Origin: a virus
Strand: one strand, 5' to 3'
IMG/VR virus record: IMGVR_UViG_3300050343_000065
Coordinates: 1-35,917 of that record
Length of the DNA: 35,917 nt
Below are positions 1,425-30,455 of this stretch, piece by piece; position 1 is the first letter of the stretch; each line of letters starts with the position of its first letter. Made by a program: the position numbers and the translations under genes. The notes beneath the pieces were generated by a model, which saw only the letters and a list, made by a program, of their open reading frames with translations, did not search any database and was not told where the DNA came from.

Positions 1425-2458
1425 TGTCAACTCTTGAAACTAACGCTATAGGTAAATACTCTGGTAACAATGTATCAGTTGATGATAGTTTAAATTTAAA
1501 GTCATACAGCTACAAGTGCTAGAAATGCACTGACATCAGTAGCTGGTGACACGATATACAACTCTGATGACAATAAAGTACAAGTATATACAGGTTCTGC
1601 TTGGGAAGATTTAGGTGGCTTAGTATCTTAATCTTTCATCACTGATAATTGGCTGGTGGTGGTGGTAGGAAGCGCATGATGGTGGTGGAGGAGCAGGAGG
1701 TTATATAAATAGTTACGCATCAGAACAATCTGGTGGTGCAACATCTATCTACAAAAATATTAACTTTTTTAGCACAAAATTATACTGTAACAGTAGGTGG
1801 TGGTGGTAATGGTGGAACTGTCTAGTACAGAGCAACAAATGGTACAATTCACAATATCATTATGTATGCAGTAGGTGGTGGTTATGGTAGGATTAAGTGG
1901 TGACACCTAACCAACGGAGGTTCTGGTGGTGGTGGTAGGTTTTCTGGTGGTAACTCTAATGGTGCAGTGGCAATAATTTTGCACAAGGATTTCCGGGTGG
2001 AAATCAACAATGCTTCACGGAGTTATCCAACTGGTGGTGGTGGTGGTGCAGGTGCTATTGGAGGAAACTGCTTCAAGCAGTACAGCAGGATGGAGATGGT
2101 GGTGTAGGTTTAGCATCTTCTATAACAGGTTCATCTGTAACAAGAGCTGGTGGTGGAGGTGGTGTGCAGCACCTGGACTACTGTAGGTGCAGGTGGAACA
2201 GGTGGTGGTGGATGGAAATCTACATCAGTGCTAATGGTGGTGCAGGAACAGTTAATACTGGTGGTGGTGGTGGTGGTACTACTTATGGTGGTAACTTACT
2301 GGAACTGGTGGAGCTGGTGGTTCTGGTAGTTATTAGATGGGCAACAGCAGATGGAACTATTACAGTTGCTGCAGGATTAACTTCATCAAGTACAACAGAT
2401 GGGTCTGATACAGTAGTAACATATTACAGCAGGAACAGGAACAGTGAGCTTTGCATAA
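1424..2458 (+). pseudogene. Glycine-rich tail-tip adhesin, frame broken (copy 2)
   Basis: Starts at ATG 1424 overlapping the previous stop. The first ~60 residues repeat the module of the 63-aa protein (NAIGKYSGNNVSVDDSLNLKSY, then RNALTSVAGD and GSAWEDLGG). A one-base shift occurs near 1505. After about 1650 the DNA is dense in GGT/GGA codons and encodes, across several frames, GGGGAGGY, 'YTVTVGGGGNGGT' and long Gly runs. This is the composition of glycine-rich phage adhesin tips that form polyglycine-helix sandwiches, as in T-even gp38. Its C-terminus, Gly-Thr-Val-Ser-Phe-Ala, ends at TAA 2456-2458. No single frame is open; sequence error in (GGT)n tracts or real decay are both possible. 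Confidence 0.6.
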
Positions 2459-3445
2459 TGAGTGAATTAAAAACAAATAAGATTTCAACAAATGACCAGA
2501 ACAATGTAGCAATAGATAATGCACTTGGATTAAAGTCATACATACAACTGCTAGAAATGCTTTAACTTCTGTTGCTGGTGATATGATTTACAATACAACT
2601 GACAGCAAGTACAAGTTCATAATGGTTCTGCTTGGGAAGATTAGGTGCAGGATATAGAAGTTTCCAAGTTCAATATCTTAGTAGTAGGTGGTGGAGGGCT
2701 GGTGGTTATAGTATGACACACAGAGCAGCAGGTGCAGGTGGTGCTGGTGGTTTTAGAACTCTACTACTGGGAAGAAACTGGTTATCCATTAACTAATCCA
2801 GAACCAAAATTTATTAGCTGCATTATCTACAAACTACACAATTACTGTTGGTGCTGGTGGCACAGGTGCAACTTATTCTTCATCATCTGGTGAAGATAGT
2901 AAATTTGGAGATATTGTTGGTGCTGTGTGGTGGTAGAGGTTCATCTGCATTTACTGGTAGAGCAGGTGGTGATTTCTGGTTCTGATAAAACACAAGTAGG
3001 TGGTGGTGGTGGTGGACAAATTGGAAGTTATGCTTCTGGAGATGGTGGAGGTGGTGGAGGTTCTTATGGTCAAGGTGGTGCTGGTATCTTCAAGAGGTGG
3101 TGGTGGAGGAGCTGGTGAGTCTCATCGGTTCTAATCACAACAGGTGGTGGCAGGTGGAAATCATCTTACTATAACAGGTTGCATGCTGTAACTGTATGCA
3201 ACATGGTGGAACTGGAAATAATAACGCAACAGGTGCAGCAAATACAGGTGATGGTGGTGGTTCAAATAGCTCTAATGGACAACACTGGTTAGCTGGTGGT
3301 TCTGGAATAGTAGCTTTAAAATGGCTAACAGCAGATGCTACAATAGGAGCAACTAGAACTGGTCTTACAGATGGTAATGTACAAACATCTGGCAGATTAT
3401 AGCTATATTGTTTTTACAGCAGGTACAGGTACAATCAGTATTTAG
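2458..3445 (+). pseudogene. Glycine-rich tail-tip adhesin, frame broken (copy 3)
   Basis: ATG 2458 overlaps the stop of copy 2. The N-terminal ~60 residues again carry the shared module (NKISTNDQNNVAIDNALGLKSY, RNALTSVAGDMIYNTTDSK, NGSAWEDLGAG), then a 'YLVVGGGG' entry into a Gly-rich tip with 'NYTITVGAGGTGATYSS' and many Gly-Gly-Gly blocks. The C-terminus 'GTGTISI' matches the ends of the other copies and stops at TAG 3443-3445. Frame shifts occur near 2540 and repeatedly after 2600. Likely receptor-binding tip if intact. Confidence 0.6.
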
Positions 3446-3464
3446 CTGATATAATAGGAGAGAT

Positions 3465-3856
3465 ATGGCACATTACGCATTTATAAACGATAACAACATA
3501 GTGACAGAAGTCATTGTTGGTATTAATGAGGACAATACAGAAACTTTACCAGATGGCTTTGCTGACTGGGAAGCGTGGTATGGAGATTTTAGAGGACAGA
3601 CTTGTAAAAGAACTTCCTATAACACCAGTAGCTAATACACATAGTGGAGATGGAACTCCTTTTAGAGGTAACTATGCAGGTATAGGATATACTTATGATG
3701 CAATCTAATGATGTATTCATAGCACCTAAACCTTATAGCAAGTGGATATTAGATGAAGATACTTGGTCTTGGAAAGCACCAGTTGATATGCCAGATGATG
3801 GTAAACAATATATTTGGAATGACAACACAGGAGCTTGGGAAGAACTAGCTGAATAA
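3465..3856 (+). CDS. Conserved marine-phage fibre-region protein (MAHYAF type), two indels
   Basis: Begins Met-Ala-His-Tyr-Ala-Phe-Ile-Asn-Asp-Asn-Asn after a good AGGAG site (3457-3461). Across three frames it reads through WEAWYGDFRGQTCKRTSYNT, NTHSGDGTPFRGNYAGIGYT and DVFIAPKPYSKWILDEDTW to a Trp-rich acidic end at TAA 3854-3856. I recognise this sequence type from marine phage tail-fibre loci; its function is not established, though a fibre-associated chaperone or cap is possible. Frame breaks lie near 3632 and 3705. About 130 residues if repaired. The stop overlaps the next ATG. Confidence 0.7.
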
Positions 3857-4315
3857 TGTCTAGTGAAATTAAAGTAGATACTATATCAGAAAAGACTTCT
3901 GCTAATGGTGTAGCAATAGATAGTGTTACATTAAAAGATGGTGAAGTAGTCGGAGCAATCTTAACAGGACTATGTTGAAAAAGATGTAGCAGTTACTTCT
4001 GGTACAACACTCACAATAGATTTAGCAAATGGAAACACAGGTTCAGTAACATGCAACATAACAGACATAGATTTTACAAATGTACCAACAGATGGTACTT
4101 CTTCATTTACATTAAAAGCAACACAGGATGGAACAGGTAGCAGGACTATGGCTATTAACGCTATTACAGTTAATGGTGGTGGTAATGTTACAGGACTAAC
4201 TCCAGGAGCTGCTGGTCTTACACTTAGTACAGGTGCAGCAGACATAGACTTAGTATCGTTCTTATTCTTTGATGCTTCAACACCCTTAATCAATTCATTA
4301 TTAGACTTTAGTTAG
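3856..4315 (+). CDS. Fibre-locus protein with shared N-terminus, one indel
   Basis: The N-terminus 'IKVDTISEKTSANGVAID' is the widespread marine-phage fibre lead-in related to the modules at 1233, 1424 and 2458. The remainder is a beta-rich domain (VTSGTTLTIDLANGNTG, FTLKATQDG, LVSFLFFDAS). A stop at 3974-3976 arises from a one- or two-base shift at about 3970; beyond it the frame Val-Glu-Lys-Asp-Val-Ala-Val-Thr runs open to TAG 4313-4315. About 150 residues if repaired. Likely a virion surface or tail-tip component; not homologous by eye to the Gly-rich tips. Confidence 0.6.
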
Positions 4316-4323
4316 GAGTTCAA

Positions 4324-5138
4324 ATGCCATTAGGTGCAACACGATTTGGATTTCAAGTGGTTAGCAGAAATGATGTGTTATTAGTTATTGCAGGTGGAGT
4401 GTTCATCTGGAATGATGGTGGCAACTTAGGCTGGTGGAGGTGGTGGTGACTTCGTATAGCAACTTTACAATACTGAAAGTGGTGGTATCTTTAAAACTCG
4501 TATGACAGTTGTTCTTGGAGATGAGTGGTCAAGTGGACAGTGCTATCAAACTTCAATGGATACTAGTATTTTTTCACAATCACTTCAACTAGGTGGGGGA
4601 ACTCTACAATGGTTCTAGTGGTTCTGGAGGTTCTGGTGGTGGAGCTTCTTTAGTGCTAAAAGTGGTGGTAGCAAGTACAGCTAATCAAGGTTTTGCAGGA
4701 GGTTCTAGTGCATCTCTTCTAAAGCAGGAGCAGGTGGTGGTGGAGGTGCTGGTCAAGAGTCATCTTCAACTAGGATTGGTGGCAATGGTGGGTTGGGATT
4801 CAATATTTATCATTACTAATGCACTGAAACTGTTGTGCGAATGTGTCTGGGTCAAATGTTCATATGCACAGGTGAGGTGGTCAATAGGTAGTGCTTGAAC
4901 TGGTCTACTGGAACAACAGGTTGGAGTAATGTGCTAAGGAATCACTGCAACATGGTGGAGTTTCAGGTGGTGGATCTGGTTCTGGTATCTACAGAACTAG
5001 GTGGCTCTGGATAGTAATATTAGTATCCACAATACAGAACATTAGCAGGTGGTGCTTCATCAGCTGGTGGAGAAACAAACAGTAGGCACAGAAAAATATA
5101 TTCAAATAGAAACAAGTGGTACAGTTACCTGGTCATAA
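4324..5138 (+). pseudogene. Glycine-rich tail-tip adhesin, frame broken (last copy)
   Basis: Starts MPLGATRFGFQ eight bases after the upstream stop, enters a 'LLVIAGGG' Gly-rich tip without the ~60-residue module of the other copies, and ends Thr-Ser-Gly-Thr-Val-Thr-Trp-Ser at TAA 5136-5138, parallel to the ends of the other tips. Many one-base breaks within GGT/GGA tracts leave no open frame longer than about 100 codons. Probably a further receptor-binding tip if intact. Confidence 0.55.
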
Positions 5139-7152: not shown

Positions 7153-8310
7153 ATGACAGAAGAACTAGGAAACAACTACTACAAATCAGGATGGTTACCC
7201 TCTATAGAGTTTGACCACAAGACTGGTAAGGGTGAGATTACTTATGTAGGTACTGACCCTGACTACGATAAGAAGTATGATTCTATATTAAAAGACTGGG
7301 GATTTGACCCTAAGTATTATGAGATTGAAGGTGCTGTCAAGGCATCTAGTTGGAATACACAGCTTAAAGGTGGCACAGTTGAAACCTTTTATGCGTTTAA
7401 AGGTGTAGTTAAAAGAAAAAATCCAGCATTAGATGAGTACTTTAATGAACTACTCAAGCTGTTTAAACACAAACCCCCATTAAAGAATAAAAAATATGGT
7501 GGTGACACTGCATTTATATTTACATTAGCAGACTGGCAATTAGGTAAAGCTGATTATGGCGTAGAAAATACCCTTGAACGCTACGAGGTTGCCCTACAAG
7601 AGGCAGTCAAACAGATTAAGGCACTGCGTAAGGCAGGTACAGCTATAGATGAGGTGTTCTTATTAGGATTAGGTGACCTCACAGAAAATTGTGACCAGAG
7701 CTTCTACTCCTCAATGCCCTTTAATCTAGAATTAAATCTATCTCAACAATATAGATTAGCTAGACAAATGATTATGAAAACTGTTGATACATTTCTACCA
7801 GTGGTTGACAAGATAACTCTTTGTGGAATCGGTGGTAACCACGGAGAAATGACAAGAGCTGCTAAAGGTCAGGTGTTATCTACAAGATTAGACAACTCTG
7901 ATATGATGCACTTTGAAGTATGCCAGGAGATTATGGCACAGAACAAGCGTTATAAAAATGTTAAAGTTATTTTGCCTACTGATTACCACCACCTTTTAGA
8001 AATAAAAGGTATAGGTGTAGCTATAACACACGGACATATGACTACTGGTGGTGCAGGACCTGAAGGTAAGATAATGAAATGGTGGCAAGGTCAGATGTTT
8101 GGGTGGTTGCCTAGTGGAGCTGCTGAAATTTTAATAACAGGTCACTATCATCATCCAAGATTATTGAAACAAGGCAAGAGAACTTGGATGCAGTGTCCAT
8201 CTATTGATGCGAGTAAAGACTTTACTGCTCGTACTGGTATGTGGAATGAGCCAGGTGTCTTAACTTTTACTATTAATAAAGATGGTTGGGATAATTATAA
8301 GATTGTTTAA
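7153..8310 (+). CDS. Calcineurin-like metallophosphoesterase (385 aa)
   Basis: All motifs of the family are present in order: Asp-Trp-Gln near residue 126, Gly-Asp-Leu-Thr-Glu-Asn near 174, Gly-Asn-His-Gly-Glu near 227, His-Gly-His near 293 and Gly-His-Tyr-His-His near 330. These form the two-metal centre. The N-terminal ~115 residues form a separate, unrecognised domain (SGWLPSIEFDHKTG). Related phage proteins act as nucleases or phosphoesterases in DNA metabolism; the substrate here is unknown. Last rightward gene; its TAA (8308-8310) overlaps the stop of the convergent SET gene within one GTTTAAAC palindrome. Confidence 0.85.
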   Translation: MTEELGNNYYKSGWLPSIEFDHKTGKGEITYVGTDPDYDKKYDSILKDWGFDPKYYEIEGAVKASSWNTQLKGGTVETFYAFKGVVKRKNPALDEYFNELLKLFKHKPPLKNKKYGGDTAFIFTLADWQLGKADYGVENTLERYEVALQEAVKQIKALRKAGTAIDEVFLLGLGDLTENCDQSFYSSMPFNLELNLSQQYRLARQMIMKTVDTFLPVVDKITLCGIGGNHGEMTRAAKGQVLSTRLDNSDMMHFEVCQEIMAQNKRYKNVKVILPTDYHHLLEIKGIGVAITHGHMTTGGAGPEGKIMKWWQGQMFGWLPSGAAEILITGHYHHPRLLKQGKRTWMQCPSIDASKDFTARTGMWNEPGVLTFTINKDGWDNYKIV

Positions 8311-8594
8311 ACAGAGTACATACTGTATTTGACAGTGAGTTCTGTACCTGCTGGAATAAATTCCTCTGTAAATAAATAGCGTGTCATCTTACCTGTAATC
8401 TTACAGTTAGGTGTTTCGCTATGATTAATAAAACCACCAAGTGGGGTACGCAGTAGGTTGTTATCTTCACCAAACCAATGTGCGTGTGTCATACCTAGTG
8501 ACTCGTAAGGTTCTAAATCTTTTAAGGTAAACAAACCTAACCCTTCTACCTTACTTGGTTGAATAGTAAGGTAGTCAGGTAAAGGTCTATACAT
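8307..8594 (-). CDS. Minimal SET-domain protein (95 aa)
   Basis: SET signatures are present: Ser-Lys-Val-Glu-Gly-Leu-Gly-Leu-Phe (residues 14-22), Asn-His-Ser-x-x-Pro-Asn-Cys (57-64) and Gly-Thr-Glu-Leu-Thr-Val-Lys-Tyr (83-90). These form the S-adenosylmethionine and catalytic site of protein-lysine methyltransferases. At 95 aa it is smaller than even the compact viral SET proteins (about 120 aa), lacking pre- and post-SET parts. It could methylate a host or virion lysine; target unknown. Start ATG overlaps the stop of the 57-aa gene upstream. Confidence 0.75.
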   Translation of the reverse strand: MYRPLPDYLTIQPSKVEGLGLFTLKDLEPYESLGMTHAHWFGEDNNLLRTPLGGFINHSETPNCKITGKMTRYLFTEEFIPAGTELTVKYSMYSV

Positions 8595-8767
8595 TATTCT
8601 TCTTCCTGTGTTACTTCTTGATTAGTAATAGTCATAGGATATAGAGGTAAGATTGCAGCAATCTCTTGCTTACCATCTGCTTTATTAAATATAATTGTCT
8701 TAAAGCTACCTCTCTTCTCTAACTCTGCTAATATTTCTAGCATATTTACTTTACTTAAATCACTCAT
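8594..8767 (-). CDS. Hypothetical protein (57 aa)
   Basis: Encodes MSDLSKVNMLEILAELEKRG..., an N-terminal amphipathic helix followed by a short basic strand segment (FKTIIFNKADGK) and an acidic tail ending QEEE. Start overlaps the upstream stop (ATGA) and its stop overlaps the SET start (TAATG), so it is tightly coupled on both sides. Family not recognised. Confidence 0.6.
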   Translation of the reverse strand: MSDLSKVNMLEILAELEKRGSFKTIIFNKADGKQEIAAILPLYPMTITNQEVTQEEE

Positions 8768-9177
8768 AGTATCTCCTTTGTATGTACTTTAGCATCTGAT
8801 TCATACAGATACCCTACTCTTTTGTTTTTGTTATCTCTGTTTTCAAACCTACTTGTTGTTGGCATAGGTCTTTCTGTCCAGTTAAAATTGTAACCACTAT
8901 CTGTTAGGTCTGTTATATTCCAAGTGTGAATATTTCCTTTGTATTCATTTAGATATATAAACTTTCTACCACTGTTAATAGCAAGAGCAAGATTAGTTTT
9001 GTATTTATCTTCTTGTATTATCCAGGAATCATACTTCGTATCTCTGGATTTTATTTCAACTAGATACAGTTCATTCTCTGCATCATATGGTGAGTACTCA
9101 TCTTCAGCCAGTGTGAGTTTACCCATAACATCTTCATACAAGTCGTTTAAACAGTTAACTATATCTGTTTCTTCCAT
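8764..9177 (-). CDS. PD-(D/E)XK-like nuclease candidate (137 aa)
   Basis: Leu-Tyr-Leu-Val-Glu-Ile-Lys-Ser-Arg (residues 37-45) is the E-x-K core of the PD-(D/E)XK fold, preceded by acidic residues at 25-36 and followed by Trp52-x-Ile-x-x-Glu-x-Lys58-Tyr, as in small phage and archaeal resolvase-like members. The C-terminal half has 'WTERPMPTTS' of unknown role. Sits downstream of the Rad52-like gene, consistent with recombination or end processing. Fold assignment is inferred from motifs. Confidence 0.6.
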   Translation of the reverse strand: MEETDIVNCLNDLYEDVMGKLTLAEDEYSPYDAENELYLVEIKSRDTKYDSWIIQEDKYKTNLALAINSGRKFIYLNEYKGNIHTWNITDLTDSGYNFNWTERPMPTTSRFENRDNKNKRVGYLYESDAKVHTKEIL

Positions 9178-9494
9178 TAGAACATCTCTTCTTGTTGTTC
9201 TTTTTTGATTGATTGTTTATCAACTGACTCTATCAAAGCGTGACACACTGCCCATTCCCATTTATAAGGATTGTTTTCATCCTGTAATTTATATCTATTA
9301 CCACAATAAAGATTACCTTCAAAGTCTAGGTACTTAATCTTATTGTCTTTACATAGGTAAGGAGCTTTGTGTGTCCTGTCAGGTGGAGCTGGTACATCAA
9401 AGTTATGATTAGGATATTTCTTTTGCAGTGTAGCTTTTAATCTCTCCACTGCAAATGAATCTCCTATAGGTTCTAAAGCCACTCTGTTGGGCAA
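9177..9494 (-). CDS. Hypothetical protein beside Rad52-like gene (105 aa)
   Basis: Soluble protein with Pro-rich 'VPAPPDRTHKAPYLC' and Cys-containing 'NLYCGNRYK'; no recognised domain. Its last residues, Gln-Gln-Glu-Glu-Met-Phe, loosely resemble the bacterial sliding-clamp-binding pentapeptide (QLxLF). Overlaps the upstream Rad52-like gene by 22 bases and its stop abuts the next start, so all three are probably co-translated. Confidence 0.6.
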   Translation of the reverse strand: MPNRVALEPIGDSFAVERLKATLQKKYPNHNFDVPAPPDRTHKAPYLCKDNKIKYLDFEGNLYCGNRYKLQDENNPYKWEWAVCHALIESVDKQSIKKEQQEEMF

Positions 9495-10375
9495 TCAGTG
9501 TCACCCCAACCTATCCAACCACAGCCTTCTTTGTCGCCATAATTGTTACAACTCCAGCTAGGTATCTTACCAAACTTATCTGGGTCATCCTGCTTTTTCT
9601 TTCGGTTGTCCTCTATCCATTCAGACTTACCACACTCTGGGCAGTTCTGTGTTATGTCTTTGAACTCACCTAATACTTTTTCAATATCACTTGTATCTTC
9701 AGACACAACTTCAATCATTGTTATATAAGTACTCATCTGTTCGCTGTTCCATTCAGATATATTTGTAGGAAAGCCTTGTGTTTCAGTGACATCTTTGTAT
9801 GTGTCATTCATCATTTTCTTTCTTACTTTCTCATCAGGTATCATAGCTGTAACAGTATGGTCAAGCTGCTGTTTGTTGTTAGGATTCTTTTCTACATCCT
9901 TAACAAACTCCTTCTTAGCTTCAACTAATGCTTTATCTTCTTGCTCAATAACAACATCTTTAACTCTACCCTTTTTCTCAATAGGTTCTTGTTTGTTATC
10001 ATCTGCATAGAAGTCATCAGTTCCTGACCATAGCTCTACGCCAAGACCGAATCTCATACAAGCTCGTTTGAAGGCATCACTCTCTGCAAGTTTAAGACAC
10101 TCACCTAGTGTTGCTCTGTTAAGTGCTGCAGATTCTACATCTCCTGCACCATCATATGAACCCATACCTTCTATGGTTATAGTTCCTTTACCACCAATAA
10201 CTTTGTCATTAATAATAATAGGTTCAAACTTCCAGTCATACTTAACATCACAATCTCGTAGTCTTTCTACATACACTGCGTGGTTAACATACTTTCCGAA
10301 CTTACCTTTAGGTGGGTCCATTACTACTTCCTTTGGAAAAGGTTTAAGTAATTTCTTTTTAGTTTCCTTATTCAT
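9473..10375 (-). CDS. Rad52-like single-strand annealing protein with zinc ribbon (300 aa)
   Basis: Residues 17-115 match the Rad52/Rad22-like annealing core: KGKFGKYVNHAVYVERL, DWKFEP, ESAALNRATLGECLK, then SDAFKRACMRFGLG, the typical Rad52-family helix. A charged linker follows (about 130-170). The C-terminal ~55 residues form a zinc ribbon: Cys-Pro-Glu-Cys near 245, then Cys-Asn-Asn and Gly-Cys-Gly-Trp near 280. Such phage proteins anneal complementary strands in recombination-dependent replication or repair. Start follows GGAG at 10379-10382. It is the only clear DNA-metabolism protein in the genome besides nuclease or phosphoesterase candidates. Confidence 0.7.
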   Translation of the reverse strand: MNKETKKKLLKPFPKEVVMDPPKGKFGKYVNHAVYVERLRDCDVKYDWKFEPIIINDKVIGGKGTITIEGMGSYDGAGDVESAALNRATLGECLKLAESDAFKRACMRFGLGVELWSGTDDFYADDNKQEPIEKKGRVKDVVIEQEDKALVEAKKEFVKDVEKNPNNKQQLDHTVTAMIPDEKVRKKMMNDTYKDVTETQGFPTNISEWNSEQMSTYITMIEVVSEDTSDIEKVLGEFKDITQNCPECGKSEWIEDNRKKKQDDPDKFGKIPSWSCNNYGDKEGCGWIGWGDTDCPTEWL

Positions 10376-10443
10376 TTATTCTCCTGTTATCATTAGAGGA
10401 ACAGAATGTTTTATTATTCATTTTGTTTCCTTTCTGATAGTAG

Positions 10444-10470
10444 AGCCTCTAGCAATAGAGGCTTTTCTAT
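10444..10470 (+). terminator. Rho-independent terminator facing right, inside leftward genes
   Basis: AGCCTCTA (10444-10451) and TAGAGGCT (10456-10463) form a perfect 8-bp stem with a GCAA tetraloop, then TTTTCTAT on the + strand. On the - strand no U-run follows. It therefore terminates rightward, antisense transcription, though it lies between two leftward genes. Confidence 0.65.
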
Positions 10471-10709
10471 TCACTATCTTCATCTATTAATTGATATAAT
10501 CTTTGTCTTGATATATCTAGTATTGTAGCCATATCAGTAAGTGGAACACCTACATTACGACCATTGTTTATTAGTTCTGTCCTCTGTTTCTTTAGAGTAT
10601 TAACTAAGTCACTAGCTTCCTGTATCAGGTAAGCTACATTATGCAATTCTTCTAAGACATTTTTCTTATTGTCCATAGATTGCAATAGATTATTAGTGCG
10701 TTCATTCAC
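10467..10709 (-). CDS. Small coiled-coil HTH protein (80 aa)
   Basis: Residues 15-50 are helical and charged (ELHNVAYLIQEASDLVNTLKKQ). Residues 55-76 read as helix-turn-helix: VPLTDMATILDISRQRLYQLI, like the C-terminal recognition half of phage Cro or small regulatory proteins. Likely DNA-binding regulator or accessory replication factor. It is the best candidate to read the genome's palindromic sites, but that link is only inference. SD GGAGAAG lies just upstream. Confidence 0.6.
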   Translation of the reverse strand: MNERTNNLLQSMDNKKNVLEELHNVAYLIQEASDLVNTLKKQRTELINNGRNVGVPLTDMATILDISRQRLYQLIDEDSE

Positions 10710-10741
10710 GCTTCTCCTTCTCTGTTCAGTCGCTACTATCG

Positions 10742-10945
10742 TTAGCTAACTGATGTTTTATATAGTTCTTTGAGTCCAATAAAGTCGCCACTATCGTTAT
10801 CAATAACAGATACAACATTGAACCCAGCTGAACGAAGCTCGGCAAACTTTAGTCTTGCCTCTGCTATCGTTGTAGATTTGTCACCATCAAAGTAGAACAC
10901 TTCTGAACCACCATAGATACTGTGACATTCTATTCGTATAGACAT
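10742..10945 (-). CDS. Hypothetical protein (67 aa)
   Basis: Compact alpha/beta composition (IRIECHSIYGGSEVFYF; AEARLKFAELRSAGFNVVSVID); family not recognised. A GAGG site precedes ATG 10945, and a TATAAT on the - strand at 10982-10987 may be its promoter. Its 3' end contains one arm of a 16-bp near-perfect direct repeat (10729-10744 and 10784-10799). Confidence 0.55.
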   Translation of the reverse strand: MSIRIECHSIYGGSEVFYFDGDKSTTIAEARLKFAELRSAGFNVVSVIDNDSGDFIGLKELYKTSVS

Positions 10946-10981
10946 AGAACCTCTTGGTTGCTTACTGTCATTGTAACTAAC

Positions 10982-10987
10982 ATTATA
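10982..10987 (-). promoter_or_regulatory. Candidate -10 box for the 67-aa gene
   Basis: TATAAT read on the - strand, 37 bases before ATG 10945 and just downstream of the GTTTAAAC hairpin at 11020-11047. No convincing TTGACA at -35. The transcript would carry a GAGG site before the ATG. Confidence 0.35.
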
Positions 10988-11013
10988 ATTAATGTATAGC
11001 TTGTTATAAATAT

Positions 11014-11053
11014 CTATCAGGTGTCAGTTTAAACAAACACCTGTTAGATACTT
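11014..11053 (-). promoter_or_regulatory. Stem-loop with GTTTAAAC loop, after 48-aa gene
   Basis: On the - strand a 14-base arm TATCTAACAGGTGT pairs with ACACCTGATAGATA with one mismatch, enclosing the 12-base loop TTGTTTAAACTG (palindrome at 11027-11034). It begins right after the stop of the 48-aa gene. No U-run follows, so it is not a classic terminator; processing, stabilisation or protein binding are possible. Confidence 0.6.
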
Positions 11054-11198
11054 ACTCTTCTAACACATTGAATAAACGCATTAGTCGTAAGTCCTCTTCT
11101 CTTTCCTTATCAATTTCTCTCTGTGATTTGTAACCACCATACTTTTTTACGAGTACTGTGAAGAGAAAAGATACTGCTAACATATCTAGGAAGGTCAT
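11052..11198 (-). CDS. Small membrane protein (48 aa)
   Basis: MTFLDMLAVSFLFTVLV is one membrane segment, followed by a Lys/Arg/Glu-rich cytoplasmic helix (REIDKEREEDLRLMRLF). Its ATG overlaps the stop of the upstream 41-aa gene (ATGA). Function unknown. Confidence 0.6.
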   Translation of the reverse strand: MTFLDMLAVSFLFTVLVKKYGGYKSQREIDKEREEDLRLMRLFNVLEE

Positions 11199-11320
11199 TT
11201 CTTACCTGCTTTCTTCCTGTCATCTTGTTCGGCTTTCATCTTCTTTACAAAAGTTGGGTGGTTTAATTGTGTACCACCTTTTTTGTTAGATTGACTTCGC
11301 CTACGCTGTGCTCTATTCAT
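11195..11320 (-). CDS. Basic peptide of the MNRA type (41 aa)
   Basis: Starts MNRAQRRRSQSNKKGGTQ and ends in a Lys-rich helix (VKKMKAEQDDRKKAGKK). Its N-terminus is similar to the 33-aa product of the adjacent gene, so the two look like tandem paralogues. Stop and start overlaps with both neighbours (ATGA) indicate coupled translation. Nucleic-acid binding is likely from charge; function unknown. Confidence 0.6.
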   Translation of the reverse strand: MNRAQRRRSQSNKKGGTQLNHPTFVKKMKAEQDDRKKAGKK

Positions 11321-11418
11321 TTGTCTTGCCTTCCTAAATTATTTTTTCTACGCCAAGAACTTTTAAGATGTAGTTTACTTTTATTAGATTTAGAAGCTCT
11401 ACGCTCTGCTCTATTCAT
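11317..11418 (-). CDS. Basic peptide of the MNRA type (33 aa)
   Basis: MNRAERRASKSNKSKLHLKS... with a Trp-Arg-Arg-Lys patch; similar over the first ~14 residues to the 41-aa product downstream. ATG overlaps the end of the 61-aa gene; its stop overlaps the next ATG. Short, but the linked overlaps and paralogy support it. Confidence 0.5.
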   Translation of the reverse strand: MNRAERRASKSNKSKLHLKSSWRRKNNLGRQDK

Positions 11419-11596
11419 TAGATTCAATCCTTTCTACTAGATTAAATTCAACTGGGTTATCCCAATCAATCACTACAAAATCCCCTGAACTTCTACCTAA
11501 GTCTGTTATGGTATCTATTATTTCAGTGAGATTATCGTATCTTTGTGTACTTGCAATGTAGACTGTCATTTTTTCTACGACTATATCTTTCATCAT
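11411..11596 (-). CDS. Hypothetical protein (61 aa)
   Basis: Small alpha/beta protein (DIVVEKMTVYIASTQRYDNL; FVVIDWDNPVEF), acidic overall. Its ATG shares a base with the upstream gene's stop. Family not recognised. Confidence 0.55.
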   Translation of the reverse strand: MMKDIVVEKMTVYIASTQRYDNLTEIIDTITDLGRSSGDFVVIDWDNPVEFNLVERIESNE

Positions 11597-11835
11597 TATT
11601 CTCCTTCTCCTCTGAACATATCCTCAAAACATTCAGGGTGTACACCAGTGAGTAGCTGTTCTCGTTCTGCTCTGCTATGCTCTGGGAATATATCCTGAAT
11701 CAATCTTCTCTGATGTCTTGGGGTTTCTGTAAACTCTTTATACTTAGCTCTGTCAACAACAACAGCACCTGTTTCCCTGCAATGTATACAGGTAGGTGTC
11801 GTTACTACTAACGAAGTATTCAGTTCCCAATCCAT
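11596..11835 (-). CDS. Actinophage-type Cys-rich protein (79 aa)
   Basis: Start at ATG 11835, overlapping the upstream TAA, is preferred to an in-frame ATG at 11868 inside the upstream gene. Contains Cys-Ile-His-Cys near residue 16, a central helix 'RRLIQDIFPEHSRAEREQLLTG' and a terminal His-Pro-Glu-Cys-Phe. The pattern CxxC, 'IQDxFP', 'REQLLTG', 'HPECF' is one I associate with small proteins of actinobacterial phages. Probably zinc-binding. Function unknown. Confidence 0.65.
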   Translation of the reverse strand: MDWELNTSLVVTTPTCIHCRETGAVVVDRAKYKEFTETPRHQRRLIQDIFPEHSRAEREQLLTGVHPECFEDMFRGEGE

Positions 11836-12050
11836 TAGACTTGTTCTTCTGTAAAAGGCGACAGACAATAGATACTTGGTCTGTGTCCATTGAAGGGTAG
11901 TCCATTTGTATCTGCCTCTACTAGCGTATCAACAGTTGTTACTGCCTCATCTAGCGTGACATCACTGTCAAAATAAAAATCTACTGTTAGTATATTTTCA
12001 TCTCGCTTCGCATTAACATCTACAAATTCGTAGACATCTGATTCTTTCAT
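11835..12050 (-). CDS. Hypothetical acidic protein (71 aa)
   Basis: Acidic beta-alpha protein (ENILTVDFYFDSDVTLDEAV). Good site GAAAGGAAAC before ATG 12050. First gene after the structured spacer 12051-12285. Family not recognised. Confidence 0.6.
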   Translation of the reverse strand: MKESDVYEFVDVNAKRDENILTVDFYFDSDVTLDEAVTTVDTLVEADTNGLPFNGHRPSIYCLSPFTEEQV

Positions 12051-12067
12051 AAGTTTCCTTTCAATAT

Positions 12068-12092
12068 GCTTCTATGTTTAAACATAGATAGC
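12068..12092 (-). repeat. 16-bp palindrome centred on GTTTAAAC
   Basis: CTATGTTTAAACATAG (12072-12087) is a perfect palindrome, extended by imperfect GCTAT/AGC flanks. It immediately follows the 3' arm of the 12089-12194 stem on the - strand. A second GTTTAAAC lies exactly 200 bp away at 12276-12283. Confidence 0.6.
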
Positions 12093-12194
12093 TTGTAACA
12101 CACAAGTATGAGATAGTTCGTACTTGTTAACCCCTACAACCTCGCTCTTGGAAGTAAGAAGTACTCGTAGTTCTGTCTTATGTGCTACAAGCTA
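12089..12194 (-). ncRNA. Candidate structured RNA in a gene-free spacer
   Basis: On the - strand TAGCTTGTAGCACA (12194-12181) pairs over 14 positions with TGTGTTACAAGCTA (12102-12089), perfect except for one G-U pair that would be an A-C mismatch on the + strand, so the RNA is likelier leftward. Inside are a hairpin CAAGTA/TACTTG with a 12-base loop (12103-12126) and a CTAC/GTAG arm (about 12134-12170), giving a three-way-junction-like fold. It is not a tRNA: no T-arm and no 7-bp acceptor end. No open frame. Function unknown. Confidence 0.45.
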
Positions 12195-12275
12195 CCTATT
12201 GACTTGGGTGTACTCTTTACAGAGGCAAGGTTTAGTAAGTCAAAATTTCCCCTCGCTCACCCTTATAGATAGCTC

Positions 12276-12283
12276 GTTTAAAC
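12276..12283 (-). repeat. GTTTAAAC palindrome after the 98-aa gene
   Basis: Lies two bases beyond the stop of the 98-aa gene, flanked by ATAGATAGCTCG, a near copy of ATAGATAGCTTG at 12084-12095 beside the other palindrome. A strong stem is not evident at this copy. Confidence 0.55.
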
Positions 12284-12285
12284 AA

Positions 12286-12582
12286 CTAACCTAGCTTGGC
12301 TTGTTGTTTAGTTAATGAATCAATCAACTTAGTAAGTTCTGTCTTGGCTTTCTTTGTACTAAATTCGCCTGACATATCTCGTAGTTGATTTACAGTTTCT
12401 TTCATTGTATCTAACCTACCTTCTGCATAATCTGCGTAGTCGTGTGCTTCATCAGCACTATTCTTCGCATCATAGGCATAGCTCTTAGCCTCTTGAACAT
12501 TATCTTCTGCTTGTTCTATCTCGCTATAGAGTTCCTCTAATAGGTCGGATACAGTTGTAACTGTATTACTTTCTTCATTCAT
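12286..12582 (-). CDS. Acidic coiled-coil protein (98 aa)
   Basis: Almost entirely helical: 'LLEELYSEIEQAEDNVQEAK', then an Ala/Asp/Tyr-rich heptad stretch (YAYDAKNSADEAHDYADYAEG) and a basic C-terminus. AAAGGAA precedes ATG 12582. No family recognised; possibly a structural or DNA-mimic-like small protein. Confidence 0.55.
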   Translation of the reverse strand: MNEESNTVTTVSDLLEELYSEIEQAEDNVQEAKSYAYDAKNSADEAHDYADYAEGRLDTMKETVNQLRDMSGEFSTKKAKTELTKLIDSLTKQQAKLG

Positions 12583-12586
12583 TTTA

Positions 12587-12645
12587 TTCCTTTCATATGC
12601 TCATAAAGAGCATTGAGTACTCGCTGTTTGAACAAGTACTCTATG
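12587..12645 (-). promoter_or_regulatory. Two mutually exclusive hairpins before the 98-aa gene
   Basis: ATGCTC/GAGCAT with loop ATAAA (about 12596-12613) competes with a longer stem AGCAT-T-GAGTACT (about 12610-12622) pairing with AGTACTC-T-ATGCT (about 12634-12646), since both need the GAGCAT segment. The larger loop contains GTTTGAAC (near 12627), a one-base variant of the genome's GTTTAAAC loop motif. It lies between a stop and a ribosome site. Confidence 0.45.
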
Positions 12646-12649
12646 CTTT

Positions 12650-12928
12650 CTACCACTCGTAATATCCATCAGGTATATCTGTTTCAACCCACTCACGACC
12701 ATCTGATGTGGTATGTGTGTGTTGGAAATTGCTTTCAATCTCAACAGCTTTGATGTCGCTGAATGTTTCGTGAACACGCCAACTACATTCGTTTAGCCTG
12801 ACATTATACATATTCTCGCCACCATTCTTCGTGTGTGCCTCTATCTTTTCTCGTGCTTCCTCTTCTGAATCAGCTTCAATATAGACTTCACTTTCTTGGT
12901 GGTACTTTAAGTAATATAAGTTACTCAT
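12650..12928 (-). CDS. Hypothetical protein (92 aa)
   Basis: Begins with strand-rich 'YYLKYHQESEVYIEADSEEEAREKIEAH', a pattern seen in small beta-alpha phage proteins, and ends in an aromatic acidic tail (DIPDGYYEW). Coupled to the upstream gene through a one-base stop/start overlap at 12928. Function unknown. Confidence 0.55.
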   Translation of the reverse strand: MSNLYYLKYHQESEVYIEADSEEEAREKIEAHTKNGGENMYNVRLNECSWRVHETFSDIKAVEIESNFQHTHTTSDGREWVETDIPDGYYEW

Positions 12929-13206
12929 TAGACATTCCTTTCTCTACTGTATATTGCTTCTTTAGTTTGGGGTGTATCTTTGTAACCCATAGCTACATTA
13001 CCTTTGTATAACAAAGGTAAAGCAAATTCAAAGTACTTGATTAAGTACTCTACATCTACTGATGTCAGCATTGCTGATACCTGTTTGCCATCTTTATTTA
13101 CTACACCTTTTATATCAATGTACATTATTGGTCTGCCACTATCTAGCCTTAGGCTATCTAGCAAGATAGCTTTTATTGGGCTATCATAATTACTTTTTAC
13201 TTTCAT
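12928..13206 (-). CDS. Hypothetical protein (92 aa)
   Basis: Mixed alpha/beta protein with 'PIMYIDIKGVVNKDGKQVSAML' and an aromatic helix 'VEYLIKYFEFALPLLYKG'. ATGA overlap with the 39-aa gene upstream. Family not recognised. Confidence 0.55.
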   Translation of the reverse strand: MKVKSNYDSPIKAILLDSLRLDSGRPIMYIDIKGVVNKDGKQVSAMLTSVDVEYLIKYFEFALPLLYKGNVAMGYKDTPQTKEAIYSRERNV

Positions 13207-13322
13207 CTCTTTACCTCTATCAATCCATCAGCAATATCTTTTCTATCTGCATAGAAAATAAAATCTACTGCCTCTTGTTTGGTATTGGTATTTACTTCAA
13301 CTTCCAATATAAATGTTTTCAT
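13203..13322 (-). CDS. Hypothetical protein (39 aa)
   Basis: MKTFILEVEVNTNTKQEAVDF...: one beta strand and one helix, ending in basic 'EVKR'. Strong AAAGGAC site, and stop overlapping the next ATG. A perfect TGGTGT/ACACCA hairpin (about 13340-13356) sits just upstream on the leader. Confidence 0.5.
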   Translation of the reverse strand: MKTFILEVEVNTNTKQEAVDFIFYADRKDIADGLIEVKR

Positions 13323-13461
13323 ATTGTCCTTTCTTTTTTGTGGTGTATTGCACACCATTGACAGCACTGATGAAAGGTACTAAACCAATGCTGTCTAGCT
13401 GTGCATACGCATAATAAAGATTGCCTCTACTAGCGTTTACAAAATGTCGTAAGTAAATTAA

Positions 13462-13492
13462 TAAAAAAAATAAGCCAGATATTTCTATCCAG
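13462..13492 (-). terminator. Rho-independent terminator, leftward
   Basis: On the - strand CTGGATA (13492-13486), GAAA tetraloop, TATCTGG (13481-13475; two wobble pairs) is followed by CTTATTTTTTTTA. It lies downstream of the SprT-like gene and before the 39-aa gene, so it should end or attenuate the upstream leftward transcript. Confidence 0.5.
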
Positions 13493-13502
13493 ATTATTTA
13501 TA

Positions 13503-13547
13503 TTTATATATCTACCCACCCGTTTAAACAGATGGGTAGTTATATAA
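13503..13547 (-). promoter_or_regulatory. Stem-loop with GTTTAAAC loop, after SprT-like gene
   Basis: TATATA-A-CTACCCA pairs with TGGGTAG-A-TATATA (one mismatch) around a loop containing GTTTAAAC (13522-13529). It starts a few bases beyond the stop at 13548. Same size and design as the hairpin at 11014-11053 but unrelated stem sequence. Confidence 0.6.
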
Positions 13548-14298
13548 TTATCTAAAATTACCTTCAGCAATAGTTAAGGTATTACCTTCACAACTAGAAC
13601 AAACAAATAATTCAGGCTCTTCAAAGCCATCATATAATTCAGGGTCTTTTATATCCCATTTCTTTTCCATCTGTTGTAGTACTGAAGCTGTACTAATTCT
13701 AATTATTAATCCGTAACCTTGTTTTCTGCTTCGTGTCAGTGGCACTGTAACAAGTATCAGGGCTTGTACAGGCTACCTTGACCGAGGTCTTAGGTGCCTT
13801 TGGTTGCTCTAATATTGCAATATGTGGAACTAAACCGAGCTTAGAAACTACAGGCTTAGCCCATTTATCAAATGCCCCACCTCTTACAGTGGCTGTTGGT
13901 TTTCCTTCAGCACCTAACATTTTTATAATTAGGTTACTGAATCCAGTCTTGTGACCAGTACCAACAGGTAACACAGCGTGACAAACTTCGTGGGCTAGTA
14001 CTTGAAAAATATCTAATGTATTTTCTAAGTTTCCAGCTTTTAAAGTTGGTCTAATAAATAGGTGTCGTGTTCCTGATGAATCATAATCTTCATTCTTGAC
14101 ATCTTCCGAAGAGTATTGACAAACTCCAATCGTGGAGTTTTTCATTCCCTTAGGCATATGACCGAATGAAGCCTTAATCTCATTTGGTTTCTTTACAAAG
14201 TTATTAAAGCCACTCGCTTTCAATTGTTTAAAGATTTCATTAATAGAATCTTCAAGCCATTCTTCGCGTGTGCCTTTATATGTTTTTGTTTTACTCAT
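13548..14298 (-). CDS. SprT-like metalloprotease (one indel)
   Basis: His-Glu-Val-Cys-His near residues 103-107 is the HExxH zinc site, followed by 'AVLPVGTGHKTGFSNLI' as in SprT/Spartan-like domains, with an N-terminal 'REEWLEDSINEIF' helix. The C-terminal zinc-ribbon region is split: one frame gives Ala-Cys-Thr-Ser-Pro-Asp-Thr-Cys and stops at 13699, while the other, open from 13745, supplies RKQGYGLIIRISTASVLQQM and Cys-Ser-Ser-Cys and stops at 13548. I read this as one ~250-aa gene with a shift within 13705-13745. SprT-like proteins cleave DNA-bound protein; the phage role is unknown. Confidence 0.7.
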
Positions 14299-14327
14299 TT
14301 TATTATTACCTTTCTAAGATACGATTC

Positions 14328-14376
14328 ATTTAGAATCGGTGTGCATACCAGTTTAAACAAGTACACACACCCATTT
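14328..14376 (-). promoter_or_regulatory. Stem-loop with GTTTAAAC loop, before SprT-like gene
   Basis: GGTGTGTGTAC pairs with GTATGCACACC (two mismatches) around loop TTGTTTAAACTG, identical in loop to the hairpin at 11014-11053. The palindrome is at 14351-14358. A second perfect hairpin CGATTC/GAATCG follows at about 14322-14338. It begins just past a stop at 14376. Confidence 0.6.
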
Positions 14377-14477
14377 TAAAAATTATGATTTGAGCACCTG
14401 AAGTTGTCAGCGTGGTAGTCAGTAGCGTAAACTCTACTTTTTCCATACAAGACAACCTCAGGGCACTCAGGGCATAT
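14376..14477 (-). other. Possible zinc-finger ORF lacking a start
   Basis: A frame encodes Cys-Pro-Glu-Cys-Pro-Glu-Val-Val-Leu-Tyr and, 18 residues after that, 'DNFRCSNHNF', ending at TAA 14376-14378. Four Cys/His ligands are plausible. No ATG, GTG or TTG begins this frame, so either an indel removed the start or it is not translated. Confidence 0.3.
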
Positions 14478-14479
14478 TA

Positions 14480-14575
14480 TTAATCTGTTAATCCTACAAT
14501 CTCAGCTATGTTTGTAGTTTTATGGGCTAACCATAATAAAACAAACAGTGTGAGAGTCAGGCTCAACATTTGCAT
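14480..14575 (-). CDS. Small membrane protein (31 aa)
   Basis: MQMLSLTLTLFVLLWLAHKT is a clear single membrane segment followed by a short polar tail. A 22-codon ORF from ATG 14588 overlaps it in another frame; the hydrophobic frame is preferred. No recognised family. Confidence 0.4.
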   Translation of the reverse strand: MQMLSLTLTLFVLLWLAHKTTNIAEIVGLTD

Positions 14576-14584
14576 TAGAAGCAC

Positions 14585-14700
14585 TCATAAACTTATTACT
14601 TCAGCTTGTGCAATATGTATGCCATTTATGATTCCAGAAATATAAGCATATTTTCAACTCAACCTTAAAGCAACGCACCCCAGTCAATCTTAAAAAACAT
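14585..14700 (-). pseudogene. Broken small ORF
   Basis: MFFKIDWGALL, VELK and YAYISGIINGIHIAQAEVISL lie in three successive frames between ATG 14700 and TGA 14585-14587, suggesting a ~38-aa protein interrupted by two indels. Evidence is weak. Confidence 0.25.
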
Positions 14701-14881
14701 ACACCCTATGTCAGAGTGAGTACATTATCTATAAGAATTATTTATTATGTTTCTATAGTCTGTTTAAACAAGTAGGTTAATTAATATATTTAGGCTGACA
14801 GGGTAGGTATGTTATGCATATGTCAATGTGCGTATGGGGGTATATATTTAGTAGGCAGTTAGTTTATTAGAGGCATCTAAA

Positions 14882-14910
14882 GTATGAAATAGCGTATGAA
14901 TACAGTATGA
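14882..14910. repeat. Three phased GTATGA repeats
   Basis: GTATGA at 14882-14887, 14894-14899 and 14905-14910, spaced 12 and 11 bases, about one helical turn, on one DNA face. The arrangement resembles small iterons or operator arrays. It lies one base downstream of the zinc-finger ORF stop. Confidence 0.4.
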
Positions 14911-15024
14911 TTAATCAGTAATAACCTTAGTAGACATACTACATATAGTGGGTGAACTATCACAATAGTATAAAGTATCTCTAATTGTTTTAAGTGTGTT
15001 TCCACACTCTTCACATTTCTTCAA
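14911..15024 (-). CDS. Possible small zinc-finger protein (37 aa, TTG start)
   Basis: Encodes LKKCEECGNTLKTIRDTLYY, then Cys-Asp and Thr-Ile-Cys: Cys-x2-Cys-x14-Cys-x6-Cys, a plausible zinc site. The only start in frame is TTG (or ATT codons upstream), and no clear ribosome site is seen, so the 5' end is uncertain. Confidence 0.4.
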   Translation of the reverse strand: MKKCEECGNTLKTIRDTLYYCDSSPTICSMSTKVITD

Positions 15025-15292
15025 TATATTAATAATAATCTTTATTTTTTCTTTGGGGCGTGAACAGGCATATATGGGGGTAGGCTCTAATTATTATTTT
15101 CTAATGACCTTGGGTAGCTTACTTGTCTTTCTAGTTGGTCTTACTGGTTGTAAGGTAAGCCTTTCGTGCTCCTGATGCCCACTTTACCTGTATCACTGTA
15201 CTAATAATTATGTTTGTTACTTGCAGAATACTATAGATTCCCTAGAATGTAAAGTATCAGATAAATTCCCTGTTTATCGTACATTAATTAAA

Positions 15293-15356
15293 AGTAGGTA
15301 GGGTGTAAAAACCAGAGGTACTGGAACTTGCAAAAGCTAAAGTACCTCCTTACCTA
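15293..15356. promoter_or_regulatory. Long stem-loop in control region
   Basis: GAGGTACT (15315-15322) pairs perfectly with AGTACCTC (15341-15348), and an outer TAGGTAGG pairs with CTTACCTA (one mismatch). On the - strand the inner stem is followed by TGGTTTTTAC, so it could be a leftward terminator; on the + strand an AT-rich run follows. Could also be a leader RNA element. Confidence 0.45.
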
Positions 15357-15404
15357 TAAAAAAATTTTTCTCACTTACTTCAACAGTATGACTATAGTGT
15401 GTGT

Positions 15405-15430
15405 ACCTAGAAAATCTAGGTGGAGCTATG
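15405..15430 (+). promoter_or_regulatory. Hairpin masking ribosome site of the 36-aa ORF
   Basis: ACCTAGA/TCTAGGT forms a perfect 7-bp stem with AAA loop (15405-15421); its 3' arm includes the AGGTGG that would act as ribosome site for ATG 15428. TATAGT at 15393-15398 is a possible -10 box without a clear -35. Confidence 0.4.
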
Positions 15431-15538
15431 AGGATAGCTTCTATTTATAATAAGAAAGAAAAACTTTCATCTAGAAAACAGTATGTGGTGTACAGTGTAA
15501 AAGAAGAATGTTTTTGTGGATTGTTATATTTTTCATAA
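15428..15538 (+). CDS. Short ORF in a self-contained unit (36 aa)
   Basis: MRIASIYNKKEKLSSRKQYV..., with Cys-Phe-Cys-Gly-Leu-Leu near the C-terminus. It stands alone on the + strand between a hairpin leader and a strong terminator (15564-15590). Either a small early regulator, or a short transcript whose RNA is the functional product. Coding status uncertain. Confidence 0.4.
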   Translation: MRIASIYNKKEKLSSRKQYVVYSVKEECFCGLLYFS

Positions 15539-15563
15539 CAGTTGGACAACTGTACGGAACGAG

Positions 15564-15590
15564 CCCTGTAGCAATACAGGGTTTTGTTTA
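15564..15590 (+). terminator. Rho-independent terminator, rightward
   Basis: CCCTGTA (15564-15570), GCAA tetraloop, TACAGGG (15575-15581), then TTTTGTTTAT. It closes the short + strand unit at 15428-15538 and its U-run overlaps the stop of the convergent zinc-finger gene. Same design, including GCAA loop, as the terminator at 10444. Confidence 0.75.
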
Positions 15591-15791
15591 TAGGGGTTCT
15601 TGTAAATCAGTAGGTGCCTGGCGACCTTTTATTCTTGGATAAGTCTTAGGCTTATGTTTGTTACAGTGTTTAAACTTATTGTACTTAGAAATAACTGTGT
15701 CACATCCTTTGTGAACGCAGACTCTTCCACTACTATATGAAGTAGAGGGTTTGCTATTAGGATATTTATTTCCTTTTATGTAATCACTCAT
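15588..15791 (-). CDS. Actinophage-type CVHKGC zinc-finger protein (67 aa)
   Basis: Start at ATG 15791 (MSDYIKGNKYPNSKPS) is chosen over an upstream in-frame start inside the divergent + genes. The core Cys-Val-His-Lys-Gly-Cys-Asp-Thr-Val-Ile-Ser-Lys-Tyr-Asn, then Cys-Asn-Lys-His, is a short zinc finger I associate with actinobacterial phages, followed by a basic 'YPRIKGRQ' tail. No ribosome site is seen; TATACT on the - strand at 15806-15801 would start transcription near the ATG, implying a leaderless mRNA. Confidence 0.65.
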   Translation of the reverse strand: MSDYIKGNKYPNSKPSTSYSSGRVCVHKGCDTVISKYNKFKHCNKHKPKTYPRIKGRQAPTDLQEPL

Positions 15792-30214: not shown

Positions 30215-30455
30215 ATACACACCATTCGTTTAAACAGTGGTATAATAAATTATAGCCTTGCAGGTTTCGGCTTAGAATAGATGCTGCACCCTCCAGTTTA
30301 TCTCTGGCGTATAAACTGTGTACTTTAAATCGCCCAGTATCGGTACAGCTAGAAGTGGCTGACAATTCTCATTTGTACTTTAATTATAACTTGTCGCCTA
30401 TCGCATTATTTACCCCAGGATAATGTAGTTAGTAGAAACTGGGAGAGGAGAGAAT
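30215..30455 (+). promoter_or_regulatory. Structured spacer before scaffold and capsid genes
   Basis: 241 bases with no open frame. A stem ACCAT/GTGGT holds GTTTAAAC (30228-30235) in its loop, 13 bases after the upstream stop; a TATAAT follows at 30241-30246. Further pairings: CAGTTTAT/ATAAACTG perfect 8 bp (about 30295-30319), GGC(T)GACA/TGTCGCC (about 30357-30403), and CCCAGT/ACTGGG long range (about 30334 and 30440). AGAGGAGAG before the scaffold ATG is a strong ribosome site. Likely a capsid-operon promoter and/or leader RNA. Confidence 0.5.

Follow-up and report, generated by a model that had tools for sequence, protein, structure and literature searches.

What is the function of an eight-base palindrome that recurs throughout a phage genome, between genes as well as inside them? 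The question is raised by the IMG/VR virus record IMGVR_UViG_3300050343_000065, a 35.9-kb contig analyzed over all of its 35,917 nucleotides (here called the window), in which GTTTAAAC (the word) is present in 16 copies, compared with 1.2 (Markov orders 0–2) to 1.8 (order 4) expected (Poisson p ~1e-10). All 16 positions given in an initial annotation of this DNA are exact, and its contrast with the one or two copies predicted from base composition holds when the Markov correction that it proposed is applied. No other palindromic 8-mer exceeds seven copies in the window, and palindromes as a class are under-represented in its relatives (observed/expected 0.73), in line with the avoidance generally ascribed to phages. 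We propose that the word is quite likely an operator, read as double-stranded DNA, for a SprT-like zinc protein that is encoded by the phage and autoregulated; the gene of this putative DNA-binding regulator is transcribed leftwards and lies at 13548–14298 of the window.

Intergenic copies are in excess. Seven of the 16 (11027, 12076, 12276, 13522, 14351, 14762 and 30228) are wholly intergenic (p = 0.0008, with 3.2 kb of non-coding DNA in the 30 kb mapped, or 11%), and the copy at 8305–8312 spans the exonuclease stop codon; the remainder are genic. Among relatives of this marine phage fetched from IMG/VR by their TerL, SSAP and exonuclease, the word is ~12-fold enriched after dereplication in those with TerL identity of ~79% or more, with no enrichment of single-base variants other than GTTTATAC. 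The enrichment is confined to this one branch and the remoter relatives do not have it. A special avoidance of the word in word-poor relatives was considered and rejected, the 24 copies against 33–45 expected (both strands counted) being ordinary palindrome avoidance, and screening the same relatives for other palindromes yielded no comparable word.

Presence of the word follows presence of the SprT-like gene. Within the window's lineage, loci of at least 8 kb were chosen by other genes: 26 with the SprT-like gene are enriched and five are not, these five having 8–9 copies of GTTTATAC/GTATAAAC instead; 63 of the 66 loci without it are not enriched, and the three exceptions are late-region pieces. 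Beyond the lineage, a pattern scan for two nearby copies recovered contigs of 36–55% GC, in which as many as 19 copies fall within 12 kb (0.05–0.5 expected), and the gene common to the window and most of these contigs, apart from TerL (which word-poor relatives also have), is the SprT-like metallopeptidase. In an unbiased set of 80 loci fetched by alignment to the SprT-like protein alone, with the word disregarded, there are 804 copies of GTTTAAAC (11.3 expected) and 313 of GTTTACAC (19.6 expected), with GTTTATAC, GTTTAGAC and GTTTGAAC at expectation; each locus has at least three copies of GTTTAAAC, which is among the top three enriched 8-mers in 76 of the 80. The general form is GTTTANAC, in which N is A, C or T but not G.

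Isolated phages extend the pattern. GTTTACAC is the top 8-mer of SprT-bearing Arthrobacter, Microbacterium and Streptomyces phages wherever fully counted, with 18 copies in VroomVroom, 22 in Zeta1847, 13 in phage 4A, 32 in Marky and 27 in Powerpuff (0.05–0.22 expected), and 17 in Emotion, 14 in Gretchen, 28 in Cen1621, 33 in Honk and 41 in Araceli; Mendokysei, a control with no SprT match, has none. When the VroomVroom and Zeta1847 proteins are compared with the word-rich contigs (phmmer, E 0.01), only the SprT-like protein recurs widely. The hosts of word-bearing isolates include Arthrobacter, Microbacterium, Streptomyces, Escherichia, Pseudomonas, Burkholderia and Achromobacter. The word thus tracks the SprT-like gene across phages of unrelated hosts and, among isolates, the sequence of the ribbon described below. 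In the literature collection searched, no relevant account was found of GTTTAAAC or GTTTACAC as a motif in phages.

The SprT-like protein combines a peptidase-like domain, with the motif HEVCH, and a C-terminal zinc ribbon. The window protein scores 24.1 bits with the PF10263 profile (E 3.4e-5) against a curated cut-off of 25.6, seven of 11 relatives match at E values up to 0.01, and the isolate homologues carry SprT-like annotation. An HExxH motif with a downstream histidine (HEVCH...H) is present in the window protein and in A4, and the ribbon cysteines of the C-terminal zinc-binding domain align, although the window copy is interrupted there: its gene is split into two overlapping frames (13699–14298 and 13548–13745) by a break near residue 190, where L005, L085, L086 and L138 have a single 253-residue frame, and the break is either a recent mutation or an assembly error. 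An AlphaFold 2 model (mean predicted local distance difference test score, pLDDT, 88.5) has a minigluzincin-like domain plus ribbon; the best match in a structural fold search is abylysin (4jiu, E 0.013), and SPRTN is not among the 50 fold matches listed. In SprT-bearing isolates the word accompanies a ribbon of the type K.Q.TR..K..C followed by a Y.[VA]R.T..W-type strand, and phages with a diverged ribbon (KSRSG[KR]SIKL...SISK.RL; Dismas, Quenya, Armstrong and Franklin22) have 0–1 copies, as does Bordetella CN2, whose SprT-like protein has no ribbon. One branch (L388, L391, L392, L416, L418, L420 and L229) has lost HExxH and kept the ribbon; its members, which we predict to be pseudo-peptidases, have 4–19 copies of the word each.

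The sites are positioned as operators would be. In Powerpuff and VroomVroom, GTTTACAC directly follows promoters of the form TTGCGCAAG-N17-TAGACT, including that of the SprT-like gene, and in Zeta1847 it sits in the spacer between -35 and -10 boxes in either orientation (all of these promoters being read from sequence). In most lineages a copy is present in the SprT leader or promoter: a site lies 8–65 nt upstream of the start codon in the window, L017, L026, L031, L286, L238 and eight actinophages, with the copy 26–58 nt ahead of it in L017, L031, L286 and L026, and 52 nt in the window (14351). The phages ep3 (Escherichia coli), Persinger (Pseudomonas), Mano (Achromobacter) and Mica (Burkholderia) have only 4–7 copies of GTTTAAAC each, and in each of them one is found 16–20 nt before the SprT start (product of chance probabilities ~5e-11). 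The 80 marine SprT loci have a weak upstream excess, with 15 copies in the 100 nt before the gene where ~10 are expected. At its other end, copies of GTTTANAC pile up in L344–L423 within the last 50 nt ahead of the SprT stop codon (26 versus 5 expected), an unexplained feature.

Selection acts on the word as a nucleotide sequence, including inside genes. Copies are retained at homologous places at 70–80% nucleotide identity at 7461, 11027, 12276, 13522, 14762, 20625 and 21157; those at 20625–20632 and 21157–21164 lie in late genes and are kept at 75–81% and, in all covering relatives, at 74–81% identity, respectively. At 7461–7468, in the SbcD-like exonuclease gene, comparison of codons shows that word-rich relatives encode [SK]LFKH through CTG/TTG TTT AAA CAY, and word-poor relatives encode KIYLKK, KDYIKK or KEYSRK; in L101 and L167 the corresponding residues are LYK, through GTATAAAC. 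The amino acids therefore follow the word, as is expected of selection on the nucleotide word in coding DNA. In the L016/L093/L101 branch several homologous copies are GTTTATAC or GTATAAAC, and non-palindromic forms occur both ways round, both for this pair and for GTTTACAC/GTGTAAAC within one promoter type; tandem copies at 16-bp spacing are also found in relatives. These patterns support the reading that the word itself behaves as a double-stranded DNA site.

The initial annotation had emphasized a different feature, a palindrome in the loops of changing stems just past stop codons, and took it as the mark of a selected RNA element. Stems are present at 11027, 13522, 14351 and 12076, and there is a weak one at 30228. 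The leftwards-strand stem-loop at 11003–11058, directly past the stop of the upstream leftward gene, has the word in its loop (11027–11034) and an A.A mismatch in its stem; a second (13498–13552, leftwards strand, word at 13522–13529) is just beyond the end of the SprT-like gene, and a third (14334–14378, leftwards strand, word at 14351–14358) is in the SprT leader. The just-past-stop placement holds for 11027, 13522 and 30228 (25, 26 and 14 nt from the stop), and also for the copy at 12276 (10 nt), but not for 14351. The site at 12076–12083, which is 26 bp ahead of a leftward gene, indeed lies within a 16-bp palindrome, and the variant noted near 12627 is GTTTGAAC at 12626, in the loop of a leftwards-strand stem (12607–12649) that has GTTTAAAC in L005, L013, L017 and L026. 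The hairpin family has a common layout, running from the stop codon (TA(A/G)) and outer stem through an A.A mismatch that never varies (T.T when read on the opposite strand) to an inner stem of 6–7 bp with the word in the loop. Over 17 hairpins, in an alignment that mixes homologous and paralogous copies, pairing is kept in 93.8% of cells, both sides have changed in 13 of 18 pairs, and 61 cells are changed on both sides compared with 18 in shuffles and 8–12 in slid versions, so the compensatory changes that the annotation proposed to look for in relatives are present. A structured element between leftward genes of the window's lineage is thus real. No RNA family was matched in a search of Rfam, no tRNA was found in a tRNA search, and no U-run follows the word-bearing hairpins; hairpins resembling classic intrinsic terminators are found separately, at 10437–10470 of the window, L016 9078 and L098 6016.

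Could these stem-loops be the functional unit, serving RNA processing, stability or termination through a loop read as RNA, with the word in genes incidental? The covariation, the invariant mismatch and the position after stop codons would all be accounted for, yet we judge this distinctly improbable. Strong flanking inverted repeats are present at 18 of 99 distinct branch sites (0.7–0.9% in controls), leaving 81 without a strong stem; conserved intragenic sites shape the protein; the loops of some hairpins carry GTTTATAC or GTATAAAC, which are different RNAs; otherwise similar hairpins lack the word altogether (L017 7911, L016 7174, L117 1239); and unrelated phages have the word stemless and in promoters. 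The RNA-only reading is thus disfavored by a word that is stemless within genes, occurs in either orientation and is tied to one protein gene and to promoters. Pairing between kissing loops is disfavored too: most sites lack a loop altogether, and in the sub-branch the loop sequence is not self-complementary. The third of the candidates originally listed, operators of a phage repressor, is the one supported, by gene linkage, promoter sites and stemless intragenic selection. On the operator reading the stems would probably be separate elements of messenger RNA 3' ends or processing, in whose loops the operator has been placed.

Two other readings keep a DNA site and change the protein that reads it. 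Phage metallopeptidases can act as anti-repressors, as ImmA does for ImmR, and a different phage protein, co-occurring with the SprT-like protease, could bind the word and have that protease as its anti-repressor; candidates include a helix-turn-helix (HTH) protein at 10467–10709, which as a close homologue is limited to word-rich relatives, and sigma-like or DNA-binding proteins near SprT in cluster AZ and EH actinophages. We regard this as unlikely, since no second protein is widely common to VroomVroom or Zeta1847 and the word-rich contigs, and the word tracks the sequence of the SprT ribbon and persists after loss of HExxH. The HTH protein itself was rejected as the binder, because its recognition helix is identical across the GTTTAAAC and GTTTATAC sub-branches and so fails to follow the change of motif. 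This small protein, a coiled coil with an HTH (SRQR.Y) at its C terminus, is encoded upstream of SSAP in relatives, its recognition helix varies between word-poor branches, and it is probably another regulator. A host DNA-binding or processing factor (HIP-like, chi-like or nucleoid-associated), with SprT as an accessory, is more improbable still. Host systems with genome-wide octamers selected inside genes do exist, chi being one and HIP1 another (PMC4390886); but the hosts of word-bearing isolates span seven genera, from Arthrobacter to Achromobacter, and SprT-less relatives of the window phage do not have the word. A host search through TerL recovered only three contigs of metagenome-assembled genomes, at 55–57% identity, and no clear host.

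The computations establish the association with the SprT-like gene, the selection on the word and the placement of its sites. How, then, might a SprT-like operator system work? The C-terminal zinc ribbon would read the word, DNA binding being suggested by covariation of the word with the ribbon and by the finding that the zinc-binding domain of human SPRTN binds single-stranded DNA (PMC12279946). Binding beside a -10 box or within a promoter spacer would repress initiation, as the position of the sites suggests, and copies within and between genes may act as stoperator-like roadblocks. Operator position, autoregulation and the scattered copies together point to a protein that is probably a repressor with stoperator-like sites. 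More speculatively, the peptidase part might cleave the protein itself or a partner upon DNA damage, lifting repression; the branch without HExxH means that a self-cleavage switch cannot be universal. That these proteins form a widespread class of phage repressor, with a SprT-type metallopeptidase, a ribbon on scattered GTTTANAC operators and damage-sensing self-cleavage in place of that of the LexA/CI type, is a tentative idea that we hold doubtful.

Cluster AZ offers a concrete case. Powerpuff forms stable homoimmune lysogens, no repressor is identifiable in clusters AZ and EH, and phages of both clusters share a SprT-like gene (PMC8758107, the only paper that looked relevant in a literature search joining SprT-like proteins with repressors). 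The 27 copies of GTTTACAC in Powerpuff (0.13 expected) include one in the promoter for gp49, its SprT-like protein, and we propose the SprT-like protein as a candidate for the repressor that has been missing in Powerpuff and other cluster AZ phages, with GTTTACAC as its putative operator. If so, the AZ/EH repressor question becomes a one-gene test, for example in a temperate Arthrobacter phage; for many marine and soil phages a regulon could be predicted using nothing but their sequences; and the SprT/Spartan family, which is known for the repair of DNA-protein crosslinks, would acquire a regulatory branch.

Several observations weigh against an operator of the SprT-like protein. In the window contig itself the SprT frame is broken while the sites remain intact, and the ribbon of the window lineage lacks the TRM signature (KAPKTSVKVAC), with L286 (KQTTRMVK) bridging the two types. 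L013 and L093 have nearly identical SprT-like proteins yet combine GTTTAAAC and GTTTATAC in different proportions. In the pattern scan, eleven word-rich contigs at least 8 kb long have no SprT-like gene on the stretch covered, though they may be truncated; many of the 80 SprT-fetched loci are interrelated, and their counts are not independent. In the word-rich marine contigs L253, L258, L282, L293, L245, L229 and L221, SprT is not directly preceded by a site, perhaps because the gene lies within an operon in these phages. Lastly, no integrase was seen in the window contig when one was looked for, so 'repressor of lysogeny' would be a conjectural label for it.

The arrangement has partial parallels in known systems. 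The stoperators of cluster A phages (L5, Bxb1) are 20–30 repressor sites of one short sequence distributed genome-wide, some of them in promoters but most elsewhere, whose consensus shifts between subclusters together with the repressor (PMC6550527, PMC9283540). The resemblance extends to tens of copies far above chance and, in Powerpuff, VroomVroom and Zeta1847 rather than in the window contig, to operators in sequence-read promoters. Stoperators, however, are asymmetric 13-bp sites that follow the direction of transcription and are recognized by the immunity repressor of cluster A, whereas here the site is an 8-bp (pseudo)palindrome linked to a SprT-like metallopeptidase; GTTTACAC runs largely one way relative to transcription in VroomVroom (15/18) and Cen1621 (24/28) but is mixed in Honk (18/15) and Araceli (19/22). 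The SprT-like protein resembles SprT/Spartan proteins (PF10263; SPRTN) in having a metallopeptidase fold of the HExxH...H type and, C-terminal to it, a zinc-binding domain (DNA-binding in SPRTN), but SPRTN is a protease for DNA-protein crosslinks that DNA structure activates (PMC12279946), and none of the family members found is described as a sequence-specific regulator. The PeSL cassettes of T4-type phages (Arbiol 2010, Comeau 2014, as cited in PMC4503421) also have stem-loops, located among the small early genes of a shuffled region, but combine an early promoter with a stem-loop terminator; the hairpins here have no U-run, terminators are separate, and the conserved loop octamer also occurs hairpin-free. 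The start-associated sequences (SAS) and extended SAS (ESAS) of cluster K mycobacteriophages are also multi-copy short repeats, about half with inverted repeats, but SAS are 13 bp, asymmetric and at translation starts, and their inverted repeats have a consensus (PMC3203893), whereas here the arms vary and the center is conserved. HIP1 of cyanobacteria is a highly iterated octameric palindrome too, host genome-wide and linked to DNA methyltransferases (PMC4390886), in contrast to a phage-borne, SprT-tied word located in promoters and leaders; SprT is the only widely shared gene that the word tracks, methyltransferases not having been searched for separately.

The remaining copies in the window vary in conservation. 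The one at 12276–12283 is conserved at 77–81% identity and is GTATAAAC in L093 and L094, and that at 9145–9152 is close to the start of a leftward gene. In late genes, the copies at 22777–22784 and 26785–26792 are found in the closest relatives only, and that at 23957–23964 is mostly ATTTAAAC in remoter relatives; the copy at 30228–30235 follows a late-gene stop. The copy at 15668–15675 is weakly conserved even among near relatives. The copy at 14762–14769 is in a 1.3-kb non-coding control region, where relatives have clusters of the word, some in tandem 16 bp apart. Near this cluster, a GGGGG(G)TATATATA element is present in unrelated phages (window ~14800–14870, L026 ~3680, L265 ~6200) and is possibly an origin or promoter. 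The commonest 8-mers of the contig derive from GGTGGT-rich repeats in the tail-fibre region (2000–4900). Finally, 16 word-rich contigs (including L226, L232, L234, L264 and L282) encode a LexA-like winged-helix protein of ~76–85 residues, and in several contigs, such as L264, L282 and L293, GAACGTTC-type palindromes lie between copies of GTTTAAAC; the two are possibly a second operator/regulator pair.

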